Source of the DNA: Bradyrhizobium arachidis
GTDB taxonomy: Bacteria > Pseudomonadota > Alphaproteobacteria > Rhizobiales > Xanthobacteraceae
Direction: 5' to 3'
Assembly: GCF_024758505.1 (NCBI RefSeq)
Contig: NZ_CP077970.1
Coordinates: 2,480,001 to 2,544,000, forward strand
Length of the DNA stretch: 64,000 bases
Each line of letters begins with the position of its first letter. Within the stretch, counting starts at the first letter, position 1. Under the pieces are notes generated by a model that did not search any database, was not told where the DNA came from, and saw only the letters and a list, made by a program, of their open reading frames with translations. A program made the position numbers and the translations under genes. Below are positions 906-17,374 of this stretch, in pieces.

Positions 906-1172
906 ATGTGTCGCAATATCAAGACCCTGCACAATTTCGAGCCGCCGGCGACGGACGCCGAGATCCACGCCTCGGCTTTGCAGTTCGTGCGAAAACTCTC
1001 CGGCTTCAACAAGCCGTCGCAGGCCAACGAGGCGGTGTTCGAGCGTGCGGTCGCCGAGGTCTCGGACGCGGCACGGCGCCTCTTGACCTCGCTGCATACG
1101 CATTCGCCGGCGCGTGATCGTGCGGTGGAGGCGGAGAAGGCGAAGGAGCGCTCGCGCTTGCGCTTCGGTTAG
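906..1172 (+). CDS. DUF2277 family protein
   Basis: An 88-residue protein beginning MCRNIKTLHNFEPPATD, the hallmark N-terminus of the DUF2277 family, followed by the conserved FVRKLSGFNKPS segment. It is small, soluble and predicted mostly helical, with no signal peptide. The length equals that usual for the family. GGAGCG lies just before the ATG and serves as ribosome binding site. The molecular function of DUF2277 is not known. The gene stands alone, divergent from the hydrolase at the window edge. Confidence 0.88.
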   Translation: MCRNIKTLHNFEPPATDAEIHASALQFVRKLSGFNKPSQANEAVFERAVAEVSDAARRLLTSLHTHSPARDRAVEAEKAKERSRLRFG

Positions 1173-1253
1173 GGTTGCGTGACCTGGCTCACGGATTGCG
1201 GTACGCGATTGGGAGAGCATGGCACCTGGGTTTTGGAAGCCCGGAGCACAATC

Positions 1254-1472
1254 ATGAACCGCCCCCTGATTTCCCTGAAAGCCGGCGCCATCATCTTTAC
1301 GGTGCTGTGGACCGCCTGGATGATGTGGTGGAGCGGCACCTATAGCAGCGCCAATCTGGCGATCCTGACGGTCTGCGGCGCCATCGTCGGCTATGTCTGG
1401 TACCGCGCCATGCGCTGGCAGTTCGAGCGCATGGGCATGCTGCCGCGCAGCGACGACGCCTCGGCGAAATAG
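1254..1472 (+). CDS. Small two-helix membrane protein
   Basis: The 72-residue product carries two hydrophobic segments, about residues 8-26 and 32-50, then a basic amphipathic tail ending DDASAK. This suggests a small inner-membrane protein. An upstream in-frame GTG/ATG extension is possible, but the ATG at 1254 has a GGAG Shine-Dalgarno at a good distance and places the first helix at the N-terminus. No family recognised. It converges on the collagen-like gene, with 6 bases between the two stop codons. Confidence 0.6.
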   Translation: MNRPLISLKAGAIIFTVLWTAWMMWWSGTYSSANLAILTVCGAIVGYVWYRAMRWQFERMGMLPRSDDASAK

Positions 1473-1478
1473 CTTCGG

Positions 1479-1961
1479 CTATTTTTGTTTCTTCTTTTTC
1501 TTCTTCTTCCTGTGACCGTCGCCATCGCTCTCATCGCTCATGTCGTCGACGATTGCGCCGCCGTCCTCTAGCACAGCTGCTTCCAGGGCCTGCTGTTCGA
1601 GAGCCTCCAGCTCGCGCTGGCGCCGCCGCTCGTCCCAGGCGTCGAAAATCTGCTCCAGCCAAGGGATGACCTGCTCGATCGAGGGCAGTTGACCCGGCGG
1701 GCCCGGTTCGCCACGCGGACCTTGTGGGCCAGCCGGCCCCTGCGGTCCTGCCTTGCCTTGCGGCCCTGGTTCGCCCTGCTTGCCTTGCGCGCCCGGCTTG
1801 CCGGCCGCCCCGGGCTTGCCCGCCGGACCAGGCTTGCCGCGTGTGCCGTCCGCTCCGCGCCGTCCGGGGTGTCCCTGCGGGCCCGGCCGTCCCGGCTCGC
1901 CCTGTCGTCCACGCGGACCCGGAGGTCCCTGTCGTCCTTGCCGGCCCTGATCGTCTGCCAC
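1479..1961 (-). CDS. Collagen-like GXY-repeat protein
   Basis: The 160-residue product uses a GTG start with GGGAG upstream. Residues 6-92 form 29 uninterrupted Gly-X-Y triplets, rich in Pro, Lys, Arg and Gln, as in bacterial collagen-like proteins that fold as trimeric triple helices. A short acidic/aromatic segment ([15 protein letters not shown]) and a charged heptad-like helix (about 105-135) follow and may trimerise the chain. The tail is acidic, then poly-Lys (KKKKKKK). No signal peptide, anchor or sortase motif is visible, so the location is unclear. The overlapping long reading frames on both strands are composition artefacts of the repeat. Confidence 0.72.
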
Positions 1962-2078
1962 GCCGCCACTCCCGCTGAAGAACGCTTTTTCTTAGCGGCG
2001 TTTGGCGACAGCAGCAATTGCGCGAGGGCGCGCGGCCCCGTGCGATCAACATCAAAGACGACGACGGGTCGTCATGCT

Positions 2079-7984: not shown

Positions 7985-8440
7985 CTACTGCCGCATGCGC
8001 TGATACGTGCTGGCGGCAAGACCCCGCACATGGGGATCGTGATCCTGCTCCGACATCGTCTTGACCTTTGCGGCGAGCGACGGCTCGTCGATGGTCGCGG
8101 CCGCCTTCATCGCGCGGATGCGCACGCCGGCGTCGGCATCGCCGAGCAGTTGTCCGGCGACCTTTGCCGCCTGTTGCGTCGGCAGCTTCGCGGCGGCCGC
8201 GGCCGCCGCCACCCGCACCACGTCGTGCCGGCTTTGCGCGGCCTGCGCCACGATCTCGTGCGAGGCGTCGGCCGAGATGATGCCGGCAAGATACGCCGCC
8301 TTGGGCGCGATCCGCGGCTCATCCTCGGCCACCAGCGTCTTCAGATGCGGCAGCACCGCAGGCCCCAGCGCGAGCGCCAGTTCGGGATAGTCGAGCTCGT
8401 CCTTGTCGAGTTCCTTGCGGACTTCGTCGAGCGTGGGCAT
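7985..8440 (-). CDS. HEAT-repeat protein coupled to the propeller-protease gene
   Basis: A 151-residue, all-helical protein of tandem HEAT/PBS-lyase-like repeats, for example VVRVAAAAAAAKL, VRIRAMKAAATI and VRGLAASTYQRM. There is no signal peptide. HEAT repeats form curved scaffolds for protein binding. Its perfect AGGAGG ribosome site overlaps the stop codon of the upstream propeller-metzincin gene, with 9 bases between the two coding regions. The pair should be co-transcribed and translationally coupled. A role as cytosolic partner, chaperone or inhibitor of the protease is a reasonable inference, not shown. Confidence 0.8.
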   Translation of the reverse strand: MPTLDEVRKELDKDELDYPELALALGPAVLPHLKTLVAEDEPRIAPKAAYLAGIISADASHEIVAQAAQSRHDVVRVAAAAAAAKLPTQQAAKVAGQLLGDADAGVRIRAMKAAATIDEPSLAAKVKTMSEQDHDPHVRGLAASTYQRMRQ

Positions 8441-8449
8441 TGACGCCTC

Positions 8450-9982
8450 CTATACGGTGAGCGGGCTTTCGAGCATCGTGTTGATCTCGGACTGGATCAG
8501 GTCCGGCGGTGGATTGGTGATGTTCCAGGTGCCGCCGCCCATCATCAGCCGGTTGGGATCGTCGACATGGGGAAGGCCGAGCACGTGCCCGCACTCATGC
8601 GCCATGGTCCAGGGCGAGGCGACGGAGGTGACGACCGCGCTCGGACGCCCCGCGGGGTGTGCCGCGCAGCCGTTCAGCGGCGGCACGGTGGAGCGGACGA
8701 AGTAGACGCAGATGTCGTTTCCACCCGCACTGTTGCGATGGCCGAACAGATCGTTCTGCTCCGCCGTGGTCGAGCCCACCACGCAGGTGCCGACGTCGAG
8801 GTCGTTCAGCGTAGGCAGATTGAGCGTTTCCTCGCTCGCAATCACGACGTCGATGCCGACGCTGGCATAGACGTCCCGCATCGACTGCATCATCGTCGCG
8901 CGCGCCACGGTGGTCGGTTCGCTCAGCACCTTCACATGCACGCGCAACTGTTCGGACTGGTGCCACCATGTCGAGTAGATGCGGCCGTCGGTGCCTGTGA
9001 CGAAGAGATCGAGATGATCGGGGAAGCGCGCGATCGGTGTGATCGGCGATTTCAGCGCGGCGCGGCCGCCCGAGACGTTGAACCAGTTGGCCCAACCGCC
9101 GCTCGCATCCCACCAGGTGGAGTAGATGCGGCCGTCGGTGCCCGTCACGAACAGGTCGAGATGGTTGGGGTTGCGGGCGACCGCCGTGATCTCCGAGCCG
9201 AGTGCTGCCGCGCCTCCGGAGACGTTGAACCAGTTGGCCCAGCCGCCGCTCGCGTCCCACCACGTTGAATAGATGCGGCCGTCGGTGCCTGTCACGAACA
9301 GGTCGAGATGGTTGGGATTGCGCGCGACCGCCGTGATCGGCGATTTCAGCGCGGCCATGCCGCCGGAGACGTTGAACCAGTTGGCCCAGCCGCCGCTCGC
9401 GTCCCACCATGTCGAATAGATGCGGCCGTCGGTGCCGGTGACGAAGAGATCGAGATGGTTGGGATTGCGCGCGATCGCCTCGATCGGCGAGCCCAGCGCC
9501 GCCATGCCGCCTGACACGTTGAACCAGTTGGCCCAGCCGCTTGAGGCGTCCCACCATGTTGAATAGATGCGGCCGTCGGTTCCGGTGACGAAGAGATCGA
9601 GATGGTCGGGATTGCGCGCCACCGCCGTGATCTTCGAGCCGAGCGCGGCCATGCCGCCAGAGACGTTGAACCAGTTGGCCCATCCGCTCGATGCGTCCCA
9701 CCATGTGGAGTAGATACGGCCGTCGGTGCCGGTGACGAAGAGATCGAGGTGATTGGGATTGCGCGCCACCGCCGTGATCGGCGAGCCCAGCGCCGCCATG
9801 CCGCCGGAGACGTTGAACCAGCTGGCCCAGCCGCTCGCCGCATCCCACCATGTGGAGTAGATGCGGCCGTCGGTTCCGGTGACGAAGAGATCGAGATGAT
9901 TGGGGTTGCGCGCGATCGCCGTGATCGGCGATCTCAGCGCGGCCGCGCCGCCGGAAACGTTGAACCATGAATGCCAGCTCAT
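8450..9982 (-). CDS. Seven-blade lectin-like beta-propeller fused to a metzincin metalloprotease
   Basis: A 510-residue protein. Residues 3-345 are seven near-identical 49-residue repeats, each WFNVSGG...ARNPNHLDLFVTGTDGRIYSTWW, as in the PLL/tectonin-like seven-bladed sugar-binding propellers. Residues ~346-510 form a zinc protease domain with HECGHVLGLPH (His462, Glu463, His466, His472) and a Met-turn candidate RLMMGG, the signature of metzincins (matrixin-like). No signal peptide or pro-domain is visible. The ATG at 9982 has AAAGGAAG upstream. It is followed at once by a HEAT-repeat gene. Likely a glycan-targeted protease; export route and substrate unknown. Confidence 0.85.
   Translation of the reverse strand: MSWHSWFNVSGGAAALRSPITAIARNPNHLDLFVTGTDGRIYSTWWDAASGWASWFNVSGGMAALGSPITAVARNPNHLDLFVTGTDGRIYSTWWDASSGWANWFNVSGGMAALGSKITAVARNPDHLDLFVTGTDGRIYSTWWDASSGWANWFNVSGGMAALGSPIEAIARNPNHLDLFVTGTDGRIYSTWWDASGGWANWFNVSGGMAALKSPITAVARNPNHLDLFVTGTDGRIYSTWWDASGGWANWFNVSGGAAALGSEITAVARNPNHLDLFVTGTDGRIYSTWWDASGGWANWFNVSGGRAALKSPITPIARFPDHLDLFVTGTDGRIYSTWWHQSEQLRVHVKVLSEPTTVARATMMQSMRDVYASVGIDVVIASEETLNLPTLNDLDVGTCVVGSTTAEQNDLFGHRNSAGGNDICVYFVRSTVPPLNGCAAHPAGRPSAVVTSVASPWTMAHECGHVLGLPHVDDPNRLMMGGGTWNITNPPPDLIQSEINTMLESPLTV
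8948..9976 (-). repeat. Seven tandem 147-bp coding repeats
   Basis: The propeller is encoded by seven in-frame units of exactly 147 bases that are nearly identical also at the DNA level, for example the recurring minus-strand equivalent of GATGCGGCCGTCGGT. Such homogeneity points to recent expansion or ongoing gene conversion and could let the blade number change by recombination. Confidence 0.85.
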
Positions 9983-10150
9983 GATGGGCTTCCTTTCATT
10001 GAAGAAGAAATCTTCGGTAGGAAACCTATCGCAGTGCAATCTAAGGAAGAGTAAGCCAGTTCACACTGGCGAAGATTTTTGCGCGGGTGTGCGGTGGTGT
10101 CGCAGTGCGCGCGCTGCGTGAAGTTCGCACTTGTTGCGTCATCAACCACC

Positions 10151-10432: not shown

Positions 10433-11029
10433 TCAGTATATGCATGCAGAGGAAATCACGACCGTGAACATGTCGACATCAAATTCGTGCTCCAGGCTCA
10501 GGTCGAAGCGTTCCAGCCATTTGGCTTGGGCCAGGTAGGCCATCTTCTCACGCGCTCTGGGACATTCAAATTTGAGGCCGGCGACATTTTGCAGGTGATG
10601 GACCATTTCGTGGACGAGAACGGATTGATCCGCCGGCGAGGTCCCGGTCCAATCTTCAGAGAGCAGGATGGTCTTCGACTTGTTGTCGTACAGCGCCACG
10701 ACCTGGCGCTGACTGAGCCCGTTGAGCAGATTGTTTCCCGCCGGGTTTTGCGAAGGGACTCCATCTGTAGCCCGCATCATTGCAAGTCGCATGTTTGACG
10801 CGAGTTCGATGGCCGGGTGCTCCTTGATGGCGGGCAGATCGAAGTTTTGGGAAAGCCAGGCGACGATTTCGTCCAGCAAATCCGCTGCGCGCCGCCTTGC
10901 ATCGGATTCTTGCGCAAGTGAGATGGGGCGAGCAGAGAAGCTCGCTTCCAGATCCCGGCAGTGCGCCTCATAACCGGTCGGCAAAATGGAAGCTGCGACG
11001 GCTGCAATGGCAAGAAATTGTTTGAACAT
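10433..11029 (-). CDS. Secreted HExxH putative metalloprotease-like protein
   Basis: The 198-residue precursor has a signal peptide (about 1-22). A zinc-binding HEMVHH motif (His140, Glu141, His144) sits in a helix VLVHEMVHHLQNVAG, as in gluzincin-type or DUF6647-like proteins. A conserved-looking block before it (LLNGLSQRQVVALYDNKSKT) and EFDVD near the C-terminus may supply the third ligand. Periplasmic or secreted. GAGGATTTC upstream of the ATG gives a ribosome site. It precedes a possible 39-codon ORF and lies upstream of, and in the same direction as, the propeller-protease gene. Confidence 0.72.
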   Translation of the reverse strand: MFKQFLAIAAVAASILPTGYEAHCRDLEASFSARPISLAQESDARRRAADLLDEIVAWLSQNFDLPAIKEHPAIELASNMRLAMMRATDGVPSQNPAGNNLLNGLSQRQVVALYDNKSKTILLSEDWTGTSPADQSVLVHEMVHHLQNVAGLKFECPRAREKMAYLAQAKWLERFDLSLEHEFDVDMFTVVISSACIY

Positions 11030-11209: not shown

Positions 11210-11350
11210 GGTGGGGTAGCCGATCACAAGCGCGCTCGCTCACGCGCGACGACGCAAGGCGTAACCCACCACCTCCAGCGAACATCTTGGAGGCCAACGG
11301 GTTACGCCGCGCGGACTGCGCTTCGCGCAGCCGCGAGGCTAACCCAACGT
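11210..11350. repeat. Intergenic repeat, 'GGTGGGTTAGCCGATCACAAG' family
   Basis: Starts GTGGGGTAGCCGATCACAAG, contains the opposed block GTAACCCACC, and ends with a CTAACCCA arm that overlaps the last codons of the mug-like gene. It resembles the elements at 13890-14076 and 14621-14748. Confidence 0.7.
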
Positions 11351-11851
11351 AGCGATCCACGCCGCGAGTTCACGCCATGGCTGCAGCGTCCAATGGCCGG
11401 AGGCGGCGCCGGACGGGGAGGCGAGCACGAAGACGTCCGGAAACTCCCCGTCACCCGGCTGCCGCCCCAACGCGATTGCGCTCGACGGCCTGCCGTAGAA
11501 CAGGCTCGCCGCCGTCTTGCTCGTGAACGCAATCGTCCTCGGCCGATATTTTTCGATCTTGGCCCTGAAGCCCGCAACATCGAACGACTGCCGGGCGATC
11601 TCACGATCCATCCCGGCGCCGGATTTTGAGAGATCGGTGAAGCCGATGCCGAGTTCGAGCAGCGACGCGAATTCGCCCGGCTGATAGCGCCGCGGCGTGA
11701 TGCCGGCCTCAAACAGCGCGCGCCAGAAGCGGTTGCCGGGATGGGCGTAGTAGTGCCCGACAGCAGCCGACCGCGTGCTGGCCGCGGTGCCTACGAAGAC
11801 GAGGCGGAGGTTTTCGCGGAGCTGGTCGGGGAGGCGGTGAGGGGTGGACAT
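11339..11851 (-). CDS. mug: Mismatch-specific DNA glycosylase, Mug-like (uracil glycosylase superfamily)
   Basis: A 170-residue protein with the family-2-like blocks FVGTAASTRSAAVGHYYAHP (19-38), GNRFWRAL, GIGFTDLSK and, near the C-terminus, LASPSGAASGHW. These proteins flip out and excise U, T or damaged bases opposite G. Motif I reads GTAAS where E. coli Mug has GINPG, so the usual catalytic Asn is absent, as in some alphaproteobacterial relatives. The stop codon lies inside an intergenic repeat. A broken second copy is present at 15664-16134. Confidence 0.82.
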   Translation of the reverse strand: MSTPHRLPDQLRENLRLVFVGTAASTRSAAVGHYYAHPGNRFWRALFEAGITPRRYQPGEFASLLELGIGFTDLSKSGAGMDREIARQSFDVAGFRAKIEKYRPRTIAFTSKTAASLFYGRPSSAIALGRQPGDGEFPDVFVLASPSGAASGHWTLQPWRELAAWIATLG

Positions 11852-12710: not shown

Positions 12711-13679
12711 CTAAGAAACAGAGAATGATCCCGCCGGCGGTTCGCCGCACCATGGCGTGCCGCGAGCTACCACCGTGTTGGCGAAGATGAGCATCTTCCT
12801 GGCGCAGGCAACGAGCGCGCGCTTGTGTTCCTTTCCGGCTGCGGTCAGCCTCCGGTAGAGCTGGATGAGCTGCGGATTCCATCGAAACGATGCAGCCAGT
12901 GAAGCGGTATAAAGGGCGCGACGCAGCCGCTTTCGTCCGCCCTCGATATGCCGAACACCGACCTGGTCGCCGCTGTCGTCGTCATAGGGCGCAAGGCCGG
13001 CGAGAGCGACAGCTTGCTCCCGCGTGATCCGGCCGATCTCAGGCAGACGCACCAGGATGGCAACGGCGGTCGGCAGCCCGATGCCGGCGACGCTGTTGAT
13101 CAGCGCGAGCCTCCTGGCAAGGTCGGGATGCTTGCAGATCGAGGCGACCAGAGCCTTGAGTGCGGCCTTCTCACGTTGCTCCAGGCGAGCGATATCCTCG
13201 TGCCAGAGCTGGTTAATCCTCACATTGCGGCAGCTCTCGATCCTGTTCTTGAGGCGCGCGATATCCTCGCCGATCTGATCGATCATGGTCAGTTGCTCGG
13301 CGAACGGCAGCAACCGAGGATCGGGAGCGGCATGGATCTTCCGCACCGCTGCGGTGCAGGCTGCGATAAGAGCGGCATCGATCTTATCGTTCTTGGCCCG
13401 CTGCAAGTGGAATTTGGCATAAGCCCGGACCTGGGCCGGCTGGAACACCACAACCACAAACCGCTTGCGCCGCAGTTCGGCGACGACCGGCTGTTCGTAA
13501 CCGCCGCTCGCCTCGATGCCAATGCGTTTGACGCGATGCTGTCGCAGCCACGCCGACAAAGCCTCGTGACCTTCCGACGTGTTCTCCACCTGCAGCGGCT
13601 CGCGGCGGCCTTCGATCGCCACATCAAGCTTCCGTTTGCCGGTATCGATACCGGCACAGATCGTGATATGCTTGACCAT
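12711..13679 (-). CDS. IS110 family transposase (DEDD/serine recombinase)
   Basis: A 322-residue protein with an intact RuvC-like DEDD domain: Asp12 (GIDTGK), Glu56 (GIEASGGYE), Asp98 and Asp101 (KNDKIDA). A Transposase_20 domain follows, with helix-hairpin-helix INSVAGIGLPTAVAIL and the SG dipeptide at Ser236, equivalent to the catalytic Ser of IS621-type recombinases. All catalytic residues are present, so the enzyme may be active. IS110 elements lack classical inverted repeats and use a bridge RNA encoded next to the gene. For this orientation the upstream non-coding stretch is 13680-13889. Confidence 0.93.
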   Translation of the reverse strand: MVKHITICAGIDTGKRKLDVAIEGRREPLQVENTSEGHEALSAWLRQHRVKRIGIEASGGYEQPVVAELRRKRFVVVVFQPAQVRAYAKFHLQRAKNDKIDAALIAACTAAVRKIHAAPDPRLLPFAEQLTMIDQIGEDIARLKNRIESCRNVRINQLWHEDIARLEQREKAALKALVASICKHPDLARRLALINSVAGIGLPTAVAILVRLPEIGRITREQAVALAGLAPYDDDSGDQVGVRHIEGGRKRLRRALYTASLAASFRWNPQLIQLYRRLTAAGKEHKRALVACARKMLIFANTVVARGTPWCGEPPAGSFSVS

Positions 13680-14868: not shown

Positions 14869-15624
14869 ATGATAAAGACCATTGAAAAGTTCATCGAGGC
14901 AGTACGCCAAGGTTCAGCGGGATGGCATTGCCAAGAACCGAAATGGTTCAGGGGGGAGCCGTTATGCGATACGCCCCTAATTCCGTCGCTTTACCGAAGT
15001 GCAAGCCGAGATCGTGAGAACGAGTTGCTTCAAATGTTTCGCGCCAGAGGAGCTGGCTACTCTGAATTTGCGCCACATCGTGATCACACGGACCAATGGC
15101 TTTTCCTCGCGCAGCATGTTGGGCTGCCTACTCGATTGCTTGATTGGTCCGAAGGCGCGTTGATTGCGCTGCACTTTGCCCTAAAGAAGCACACCTCTGC
15201 TGTGGTGTGGATGCTCAACCCGCTCGAGTTGAATGCTCTCTCGGCCGGTCAGCCGAAGCGGCCGGATGATTTGCCCAGGCAATTTCCTCTGCCTTGGTAC
15301 GGAGATCAAAATCCTGCATTCAGGAATCTTCGCGCTGCATGGGAAGAGTCTGATGAGCTTGGGGTCGATCTTCCGATCGCTGTCTATCCGACCTATGTTC
15401 ATCCCAGATTGCCAGGACAGCGAGCATGTTTCACCGTGCATGGCAAACGTAAGGAGGGCCTTGGCGCACTGGTTTCTGACGACAGAATTTTACAGTGCTT
15501 AGAACTTGATCCCGCTTACCATGATACGATGCGTCGAGAACTGAAACTTTTGGGCGTTACGGATTCAGTCTTATTCCCGGACTTGGACGGATTGGCCGAA
15601 GAGCTGAAACAGCGATTCTCGTGA
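14869..15624 (+). CDS. FRG-domain protein
   Basis: A 251-residue protein with a full FRG domain: KWFRGEP near residue 25, PSLYRS, FLAQHVGLPTRLLDWSEGAL around 83-102, ALHFAL, and a later AVYPTYVHPRLPGQRACFTVHG block. FRG domains occur in proteins of phage-defence and mobile regions and are distantly ADP-ribosyltransferase-like; the biochemical role is unsettled. GC is visibly lower than in neighbours and the gene sits between an IS110 element and an HNH nuclease gene, so it was probably acquired horizontally. Confidence 0.85.
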   Translation: MIKTIEKFIEAVRQGSAGWHCQEPKWFRGEPLCDTPLIPSLYRSASRDRENELLQMFRARGAGYSEFAPHRDHTDQWLFLAQHVGLPTRLLDWSEGALIALHFALKKHTSAVVWMLNPLELNALSAGQPKRPDDLPRQFPLPWYGDQNPAFRNLRAAWEESDELGVDLPIAVYPTYVHPRLPGQRACFTVHGKRKEGLGALVSDDRILQCLELDPAYHDTMRRELKLLGVTDSVLFPDLDGLAEELKQRFS

Positions 15625-15663
15625 GGCACTCGTGAGCCTGCAGGCTAGATCATCGAAGAACCA

Positions 15664-16134
15664 TTGACGCGGCTGCCAACGACTAGAAGTCGTCCCGAGG
15701 GCACGAAGACGTCGGGAACCCCTTCGTCCAGCCTGCTGCCACCTCAGCGAGATCAAGCCGGACGGCCCGCCGTAGAACAGGCTCGCCGCCTTCTTGCTTG
15801 TAAAGGCAATCGTCTTCGGGCGATACCTTTCGATCTTGGCCCGGAAGCCCGCGACATCGAAGGATTGTCTGGCGATCTCGTGATCCATCCCGGTGCCGGG
15901 TTTGGAGAGGTCGGTGAAGCCGATCCCGAGCGCGAGCAGCGCTGTGAACTCGCCCGGTTGATAGCGCCGCAACGTGATGCCGGCCTCGTGCAGCGCGCGC
16001 CAGAAGCGGTTGCCGGGATGGGCGTAGTAGTGACCAAGCGCGGCCGAGTGCGTGCTGGCGGCGGTGCCGACGAAGAGAAGGCAGAGGTTTTCGCGGAGCT
16101 GGTCGGGGAAGCCGTTGAACGTGGTTTCGGGCAA
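15664..16134 (-). pseudogene. Broken second copy of the mug-like glycosylase gene
   Basis: The frame reads LRENLCLLFVGTAASTHSAA, HYYAHPGNRFWRAL and IGFTDLSKPGTGMD, very close to the product of 11339-11851. After ASLFYGGPS it loses the frame. The expected PDVFV-PSG block is found in another frame near 15700, and the final ASGHW motif is missing. The 5' end lacks an equivalent ATG start. The copy is therefore degenerate at both ends. It lies between the FRG and HNH genes and could result from a duplication or incoming segment. Confidence 0.78.
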
Positions 16135-16192
16135 ATCACGCGTCCGCAGGCTTGTCAGTTCCGCAAAGTGGGTTGGCCAAACAGGCTGTGCT

Positions 16193-17374
16193 TCACGGAC
16201 AATGAAACCCAAATCTCAGTCGGTGATGGCGGATGTTCTCTTCCGACGGGCGCTCGCTCTGTGGTTGCGATACTTCCCTTGTTCGCAGGAAATCGTATGT
16301 GGTATCTGAAAGCCTACTGCTGATTTCGACTCGGCTTCCATCCAGCGTCAGGGCAATCAGACCTTCATCGAAAAGCGCATGAACATCAGCCCGAAGCAAG
16401 AGTCCATTTCGTAGGTTATTATCGTCTTGCCCTTTTTCGACCTTGATATGGGCCGCTTCAAGCGCTTCGGCTGTGGTGCAGCCAGTAAACGCACATTTGC
16501 CTTGATAGGCTCGTCGAATCCTTACGCTAAACTTTGCCTGATCGGGGCGCAATGCCACGTTCCCGAGCCGCTTCAAGCGAGCAACTTCATTATGTCCATC
16601 GGCTTCGAAATCATGAGCGTCGAAGAGAGGCATTAGCCTGCCGACCTCATCACGTTCGATCCGCCTGATGCCGCGATGCGAGTATCCCTTTAGTTTTTCG
16701 TACAGGCTTGCCTCATAGACATCAGTTGAGTGTCTAAATTCATCGAGTTCTCGCGTCCCAAAAAGGGAAGACGTTTTACGTAGATCGGCAAGTTGGATGT
16801 GATAGTCGTTTGTGCGTTGCTTATCTAAGTTCCGTACTGAGCCGTACCACGTAATTCCTTGTCCGCCATCCTCTTCAAGCAGCCACACGAAGACTCGATC
16901 CCCCACAGAGATGTCACCTCCTTGCATCTTTGCGATCGGCCGTGCTTGAAGCGAGAGCAGTTTGCCACTTTGCTCGATGGAGTCAGTCTTGATAACAAAA
17001 CCTCGTTGATCTTCGCTTTCCTCGTAGTCTTCTTCCAGCCAGACTGGGGGCGGGTCTGGGACAACGAACGTTGCGTCTCCCTCGTCTTGCCATTCGATGC
17101 GGCGCACGACCTTCCTTTCCGCCGTCTCAAATAGGATGCGGGTGACGCCCGGCCAGATCGATTTTGGGTCGTTGTTGCTCAGCCGATAAGTAAGCGTTGC
17201 AGTGTTTCCTTTAATCCGAATTATAGTTCTGACAGCAAAGGTTGAACCATTCGGCTTCCTTGTATCGTGCTCAATCTCCTTGTCCCCTACTTCCGCATCG
17301 AACAGGCTCGTGGGGATAAGGTCGACATAGTTCTTAGATTCTTTGTTCTTCCAATGAATTGCTAGAGTTGTCAT
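16193..17374 (-). CDS. HNH endonuclease with N-terminal putative recognition domains
   Basis: A 393-residue protein from the ATG at 17374 (an in-frame TTG lies 6 bases upstream). The C-terminal part holds an HNH_2-type nuclease: CAFTGC, then EALEAAHIKVEKGQDDNNLRN, then LLLRADVHALFD. The N-terminal ~120 residues are beta-rich. The middle contains GDISVGDRVFVWLLEEDGGQ and GITWYGSVRNL, which recalls EVE/PUA-like modified-base readers (weak inference). A type IV-like restriction enzyme is plausible. GC is low relative to neighbours, which fits acquisition. Confidence 0.8.
   Translation of the reverse strand: MTTLAIHWKNKESKNYVDLIPTSLFDAEVGDKEIEHDTRKPNGSTFAVRTIIRIKGNTATLTYRLSNNDPKSIWPGVTRILFETAERKVVRRIEWQDEGDATFVVPDPPPVWLEEDYEESEDQRGFVIKTDSIEQSGKLLSLQARPIAKMQGGDISVGDRVFVWLLEEDGGQGITWYGSVRNLDKQRTNDYHIQLADLRKTSSLFGTRELDEFRHSTDVYEASLYEKLKGYSHRGIRRIERDEVGRLMPLFDAHDFEADGHNEVARLKRLGNVALRPDQAKFSVRIRRAYQGKCAFTGCTTAEALEAAHIKVEKGQDDNNLRNGLLLRADVHALFDEGLIALTLDGSRVEISSRLSDTTYDFLRTREVSQPQSERPSEENIRHHRLRFGFHCP

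Follow-up and report, generated by a model that had tools for sequence, protein, structure and literature searches.

The window, a 64-kb stretch of DNA from a soil bacterium, carries a two-gene cassette in which the gene for a protease without a visible signal peptide is followed directly by a gene for a small HEAT-repeat protein. The protease joins a predicted seven-bladed lectin-type propeller to a metzincin-like domain, and the same domain recurs across bacterial phyla behind unrelated N-terminal heads, with the HEAT gene remaining at its side. The small repeat gene directly downstream, together with the swapped heads, is what one would expect of an effector that has its own inhibitor, and we give an even chance to the reading that the cassette specifies a head-guided protease and its HEAT inhibitor, freed on lysis, ingestion or unconventional release. 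The conserved partner and the exchangeable heads are the informative part of this analysis, and both were absent from an earlier note on this DNA; what that note had observed is confirmed, but its interpretation is only partly supported.

The protease gene (8450..9982; all features of the cassette lie on the minus strand) encodes 510 amino acids, with the propeller in residues 1–344 and the metzincin-like domain in residues 345–510, and is preceded by a Shine-Dalgarno sequence, AGGAAG, at 9989..9994. The HEAT-repeat gene (7985..8440; 151 aa) starts 9 bases past the protease stop, and its own Shine-Dalgarno sequence, GGAGG (8446..8450), overlaps the protease stop codon (8452–8450); both Shine-Dalgarno assignments were read from the sequence. 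Because of this close spacing the two genes are probably translationally coupled. The product of the second gene, the proposed inhibitor or immunity protein, matches Pfam HEAT_2 at 35.1 bits (cut-off 27.7).

The propeller consists of a WFNVSGG...IYSTWW unit repeated seven times, each copy exactly 49 residues long, from residue 6 to about residue 344 with a mean identity of 86%. The blades (8939..9967) lie at 9967–9821, 9820–9674, 9673–9527, 9526–9380, 9379–9233, 9232–9086 and 9085–8939, the final few residues of the last one extending into the catalytic domain. Pfam DUF346 and NCBIfam beta_propeller_lectin both score above their cut-offs, and the CV39L equivalog falls below its own (291 vs 350). 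A single-sequence structure model was poor (pLDDT 53) and was set aside in favour of a second model of the whole protein, in which the propeller closes; a fold search with this model returned Photorhabdus PLL lectins as the closest solved propellers, which, according to the available part of the source, come from an insect pathogen and nematode symbiont (PMC12203525). The lectin-like, PLL-type propeller proposed in the earlier note is borne out by repeats, profiles and predicted fold.

The catalytic domain (8453..8950) represents an unnamed metzincin-like family. Its zinc-binding motif HECGHVLGLPH, of the HExxHxxGxxH type and already recognised in the earlier note, occupies residues 462–472 (8567..8599), and the Met-turn candidate expected downstream of it is Met480 (8543..8545), within RLMMGGGT, conserved in at least 95% of 123 homologues. 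The G of the motif is retained in 76 of 81 loci and replaced by D, N or S in the remaining five. Cys400 (8783..8785) and Cys439 (8666..8668, in an NGCA motif) are each conserved in at least 95% of the same 123 homologues and could form a disulfide, and the pair suggests extracytoplasmic action; a distant relative (L098) lacks it, Cys400 being absent, a point against the effector reading.

Support for a metzincin fold around the motif is divided: the catalytic part of the structure model is predicted with high confidence and its element order is metzincin-like, but the fold searches were filled by the propeller and listed no metzincin chain. Of the two outcomes that the note named as refuting, an open propeller and a missing metzincin fold, neither was seen in the model. 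Pfam PF00413 (peptidase M10, matrixin) reaches only 20.1 bits in the window protein, below its cut-off of 24; reprolysin-like profiles give long matches above curated cut-offs in three of 20 proteins scanned (L006, L082 and P0137). The best matches of the domain to sequences of solved structures score about 18–25 bits, around the active site. A sugar-guided protease, as the note envisaged, is plausible.

Of 864 candidates from a search with residues 345–510, 605 proved to be homologues; the best 120 of these are 61–91% identical. In the N-terminal half they fall into families that bear no relation to one another—PLL/DUF346, FG-GAP, LGFP, DUF6623, hemopexin, BTRD1, B_lectin, DUF5648 and OmpA—and further head types include cysteine-rich WCxKCQG repeats, among others. 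One 2127-aa protein (L019) has an RHS repeat match with the same catalytic domain at its C-terminus and the HEAT gene adjoining; the C-terminus of an RHS-type protein is where polymorphic-toxin domains commonly sit. A tree of 81 rows (the genome scan plus the window and L085; built quickly and weak in many branches) is dominated by heads of the LGFP (32), PLL (21), FG-GAP (10) and DUF6623 (10) classes, and implies at least 11 head changes, during which the HEAT gene stays, and at least 19 phylum changes.

The protease loci span nine bacterial phyla and one MAG labelled Methanobacteriota, although they include near-copies, Algoriphagus alone contributing 19 of the 80 genome-scan loci. The distribution is patchy: five of 195 genomes of the genus have a match at E≤1e-3, three of them strong, and two of 398 genomes of the phylum at E≤1e-10. 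Family proteases occur on two of 72,556 plasmid records. A pattern scan of IMG/VR gave 99 matches, none of which was confirmed as a relative, and no relatives were found in the INPHARED phage records; a phage or prophage origin is ruled against by these two results. Matches to PHROGs were to unrelated families and lay on repeats, no single stretch passing alone, and PADLOC matches were low-scoring and confined to the propeller; both were discarded.

With a profile seeded by the window partner, 81 of 82 loci have a HEAT homologue directly downstream of the protease and on its strand; we propose that this neighbour is an immunity gene. The 81 comprise 80 within a strict distance window and L077, where the ORFs are 11 nt apart, and the 82 exclude L001, L083 and L084, which duplicate either the window locus or L003, and L002 and L087, which lack a full match to the catalytic domain. 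These loci contain a single further profile hit, in L016, which its position marks as another piece of the same HEAT gene. The only exception to the linkage is L086, which has no HEAT neighbour and whose genome (G108) has no HEAT-family hit. Linkage is seen with LGFP, PLL, FG-GAP, DUF6623, DUF5648, B_lectin, OmpA and RHS heads and with an unnamed repeat head (L023), the hemopexin, BTRD1 and cysteine-rich heads having been met as proteins without locus context. L086 itself (1081–2043, plus strand), from another genome of the genus, codes for a distant metzincin preceded by an OmpA-like stretch (18.1 bits, below the cut-off of 27.2).

The profile used for the loci was trained on these same downstream genes, and only genome-wide searches and outside annotations give independent support. 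A genus-wide search of 195 genomes places the HEAT family (E≤1e-12) in exactly three, the same three that have a strong protease hit; among the 398 of the phylum it is present in three (G000, G319 and G253), each with a metzincin upstream. The protease adjoins the HEAT gene in G000 and G319. G253 has, 14 bases upstream of its HEAT gene, a 707-aa gene that carries a remote family member at its C-terminus (HEVGHVFGLPH...VMHPGG), which scores E 5.7e-6 (26.9 bits) when the genome is searched alone and so falls short of the limit of the phylum search. All five HEAT-family genomes (5/5) have a metzincin immediately upstream, and two plasmid records carry, in their own annotation, a 'HEAT repeat domain-containing protein' beside the protease. 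The linkage of the two genes is thus near-obligate whichever of them is taken as the starting point. Glu15, Tyr18 and Leu33 are invariant in 33 aligned HEAT sequences. Protease and HEAT distances are correlated (Mantel r 0.75 for 73 loci), a correlation that drops to 0.41 for 37 dereplicated loci, still above all 999 permutations, and that has head class and phylum as confounders.

Two further features accompany particular heads. All 10 loci with a DUF6623 head (L017, L020, L028, L029, L030, L035, L040, L050, L055 and L076) have a third, free-standing DUF6623 gene of 147–159 aa as called, 455–540 nt past the protease stop and just behind the HEAT gene; this spare copy, which is absent from the window, suggests that heads may act alone or assemble with the protease. 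Seven of the nine loci with PLL heads of the GWESLGG type (L006, L008, L010, L011, L026, L027 and L032) have HEAT partners with tails of two to six MPGE motifs, often GLMPGE; in another PLL subtype one of four partners (L007) ends in GLMPG, and the remaining head classes have none (0/60). These tails might serve as docking sites, substrate mimics or processing sites.

Elsewhere in the same genome a second PLL protein of 861 aa (L002, 34–2619, minus strand) has a signal-peptide-like start at an internal methionine, and its fused domain is, by motif, presumably a tyrosinase-type copper domain; from that start the organism probably exports another PLL propeller by signal. Just upstream of the cassette a DUF6647 protein (10433–11029, minus strand) with a signal-peptide-like start and a HEMVHH motif is possibly a second secreted metallopeptidase. 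Two related gene copies (11339–11851 and 15571–16212, minus strand), which we take to be uracil-DNA-glycosylase-like, both match one stretch of L003. They flank what we assume to be an IS110-like transposase (12711–13679) and an FRG-domain-like gene (14869–15624), and the region looks like a rearranged accessory region.

The window protein has no signal peptide visible by hydrophobicity, as the earlier note had said, though several genes of the same window show one. That this is unusual, as the note also held, does not stand: under a heuristic test (hydrophobicity score limit 1.9, chosen by us) none of 125 family proteins, the window's included, shows one, with the proviso that 12 of the 125 do not start with Met and some are probably truncated, so that true N-termini may be missing. 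The Photorhabdus PLL lectins lack one as well, PLL2 and PLL3 being described in the available part of the source as having no recognised signal peptide and yet being found extracellularly (PMC12203525), so a PLL propeller can turn up outside cells even where no signal peptide is recognised. Two of 73 HEAT partners exceed 1.9, in stretches read as helical repeats, the score being uninformative for HEAT proteins.

The suggestion that such a protein uses a specialised route or acts after lysis survives in its second half; the first is unsupported in this genome, where T6SS TssF was not found (E. coli control positive) and eCIS_core had no match, a result for which no control came up positive, from a query that matched 18 of 40 cassette genomes (G007, G590, G608 and G618 among them). 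Export by a specialised machine, for instance an extracellular contractile injection system or T6SS, draws some support from those 18 genomes and from the Pseudomonadota, in which eCIS_core occurs in four of 10 cassette genomes against 20 of 249 in the background (Fisher p 0.008), a comparison of few genomes, one of the four marginal, with genome size uncontrolled. Against it, eCIS_core is without a match in 22 of the 40, the window's genome among them, TssF is missing from 33 of the 40 and full-length in only four, and no other gene family is found again in the majority of flanks once closely related hosts are set aside. With neither marker general and neither found in the window's genome, we rejected an export machine as the general route, keep it only as a lead, and regard such export as very improbable. 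In G007, eCIS_core lies on other contigs than the cassette. The export signal is absent in hosts with very different envelopes, which argues against one envelope-specific machine, and on this analysis release via lysis or ingestion would be the simplest remaining route. Colicins and fungal chimerolectins are released in these ways.

In the reading that we prefer, the first gene would yield a cytosolic, signal-less protease with an exchangeable N-terminal head, here the PLL propeller, on a conserved metzincin-like domain, and the second a small HEAT protein that would bind and block it within the producer, as an immunity protein or dedicated inhibitor. Once the producer is lysed or eaten, or through unconventional protein release, the protease would part from its inhibitor or outrun it; the head may then bind glycans on a competitor, host or grazer, and the protease cut surface proteins there. 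A more ambitious form, to which we hold tentatively as falling short of an even chance, is a cross-phylum weapon family with a constant signal-less metzincin, at least 10 kinds of exchangeable surface-binding head and a dedicated HEAT immunity protein, perhaps with Glu15 and Tyr18 in [DE]E-x-[DN]Y acting on the active site. In that case it would be the first HEAT protein known to us that inhibits a metzincin in trans. A special case of the main reading would be an anti-grazer chimerolectin, stored in the cytoplasm and harming nematodes, amoebae or other grazers once eaten, with the HEAT protein only guarding the producer. Many of the host genera are, we assume, soil bacteria, which is in its favour, but Algoriphagus, among the hosts, is presumably a marine genus, and LGFP, OmpA and FG-GAP heads are not known to us to bind animal glycans. 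The architecture follows the same logic as that of fungal MOA (PMC8244254) and the anti-nematode lectin CCTX2 (PMC13324453), as far as the available parts of both sources go, and the origin of the closest solved propellers in an insect pathogen and nematode symbiont (PMC12203525, likewise in part) points the same way; on balance we think this special case unlikely.

HEAT proteins can also act as chaperones, adaptors or substrates, and the tight spacing, with a linkage that goes with the catalytic domain and is indifferent to the head, would suit a folding partner equally. Chaperone partners of secreted proteins usually accompany an identifiable export signal or machine, and none general to the family was found. 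HEAT repeats are, moreover, listed among immunity proteins in the available text of PMC3482391, and we consider it rather unlikely that the HEAT protein serves the protease as its own chaperone, stabiliser or release factor instead of inhibiting it. The pair might also act inside the cell, in toxin–antitoxin or phage defence, with the head sensing a trigger and freeing the protease from the HEAT protein. A protease family without visible signal peptides and its patchy distribution in genus and phylum would agree with this, and in L063, which has little beyond the catalytic domain, and L045, whose LGFP head is frame-broken, an intracellular role fits equally for want of a readable head. The heads in general, however, are typical of surface or glycan binding (LGFP, B_lectin, hemopexin, PLL), the cysteine pair is conserved, and neither the weak PADLOC matches nor the viral collections speak for defence; intracellular action is quite unlikely.

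The 605 domain homologues make up a large unannotated protease family tied to one dedicated partner, and the cassette offers a natural set of exchangeable targeting heads on one enzyme. If inhibition by the HEAT protein is true, the cassette would be a new toxin–immunity pair that owes its specificity to the head, as well as a bacterial counterpart of the fungal chimerolectins, and inhibition would account for the cytosol tolerating a protease that has no export signal. A literature search with subscription papers and preprints outside its scope yielded no account of the protease–HEAT pair, and the pair is not described in the available parts of PMC7159879 and PMC8195603.

Each half of the protease has known relatives. 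The seven-bladed PLL/PHL lectins of Photorhabdus and CV39L/BP39L are stand-alone lectins, whereas the window propeller is joined to a protease and followed by a HEAT gene. The domain shares HExxHxxGxxH and the Met-turn with metzincins such as the fragilysin family, snapalysin, M10 matrixins and reprolysin-like enzymes, but has no visible prodomain or signal peptide and ends in a family-specific NITNPPPD tail. Other PLL–protease chimeras combine the same propeller with unrelated catalytic domains, M64 (PF09471) accounting for 90 of 120 among the matches listed in a PLL search. Four that were inspected (P0010, P0012, P0017 and P0022) have no visible signal peptide; the catalytic parts of P0010 and P0012 are, by our own reading, G1-like and papain-like, the latter type being annotated in L094. 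Bacterial PLL–protease chimeras seem to form a wider class, and the one PLL–papain plasmid locus examined has no HEAT gene annotated. The protease bacteriocin Bcn-C is different, being M35-like with a predicted signal peptide in the available text of PMC7259588.

The fungal chimerolectins (MOA, the holotype, and CCTX2) likewise pair a lectin with an effector domain, which in MOA is a protease, and serve in anti-nematode defence. MOA reportedly has no signal peptide and a beta-trefoil lectin. The window protein, as modelled, combines a lectin-type fold and a protease motif in one chain without a visible signal peptide, and in place of a MOA-type papain-like domain and beta-trefoil, neither of which it contains, it has a metzincin motif and a PLL propeller. 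The protease domain of MOA, which has a papain-like fold and needs Ca or Mn, is described without mention of an inhibitor gene in the available text of PMC8244254, whereas the metzincin-like domain studied here has swappable heads and a linked HEAT gene.

With the polymorphic toxins (Imm-HEAT; Tox-MPTase1–5, ALF-like zincins) the family shares a C-terminal zinc peptidase, a downstream interaction-repeat gene and one RHS-linked member. HEAT repeats are catalogued there as immunity proteins of other toxins, and the available table passages give them Ntox34 and Tox-REase-7, but no metallopeptidase, as partners (PMC3482391). Of the secretion determinants of such toxins, a signal-peptide-like N-terminus was sought heuristically in the window protein and 124 relatives and not seen. 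The arrangement itself is reversed: polymorphic toxins keep the N-terminus constant and vary the tip, whereas this family keeps its C-terminal protease constant and varies the N-terminal head.
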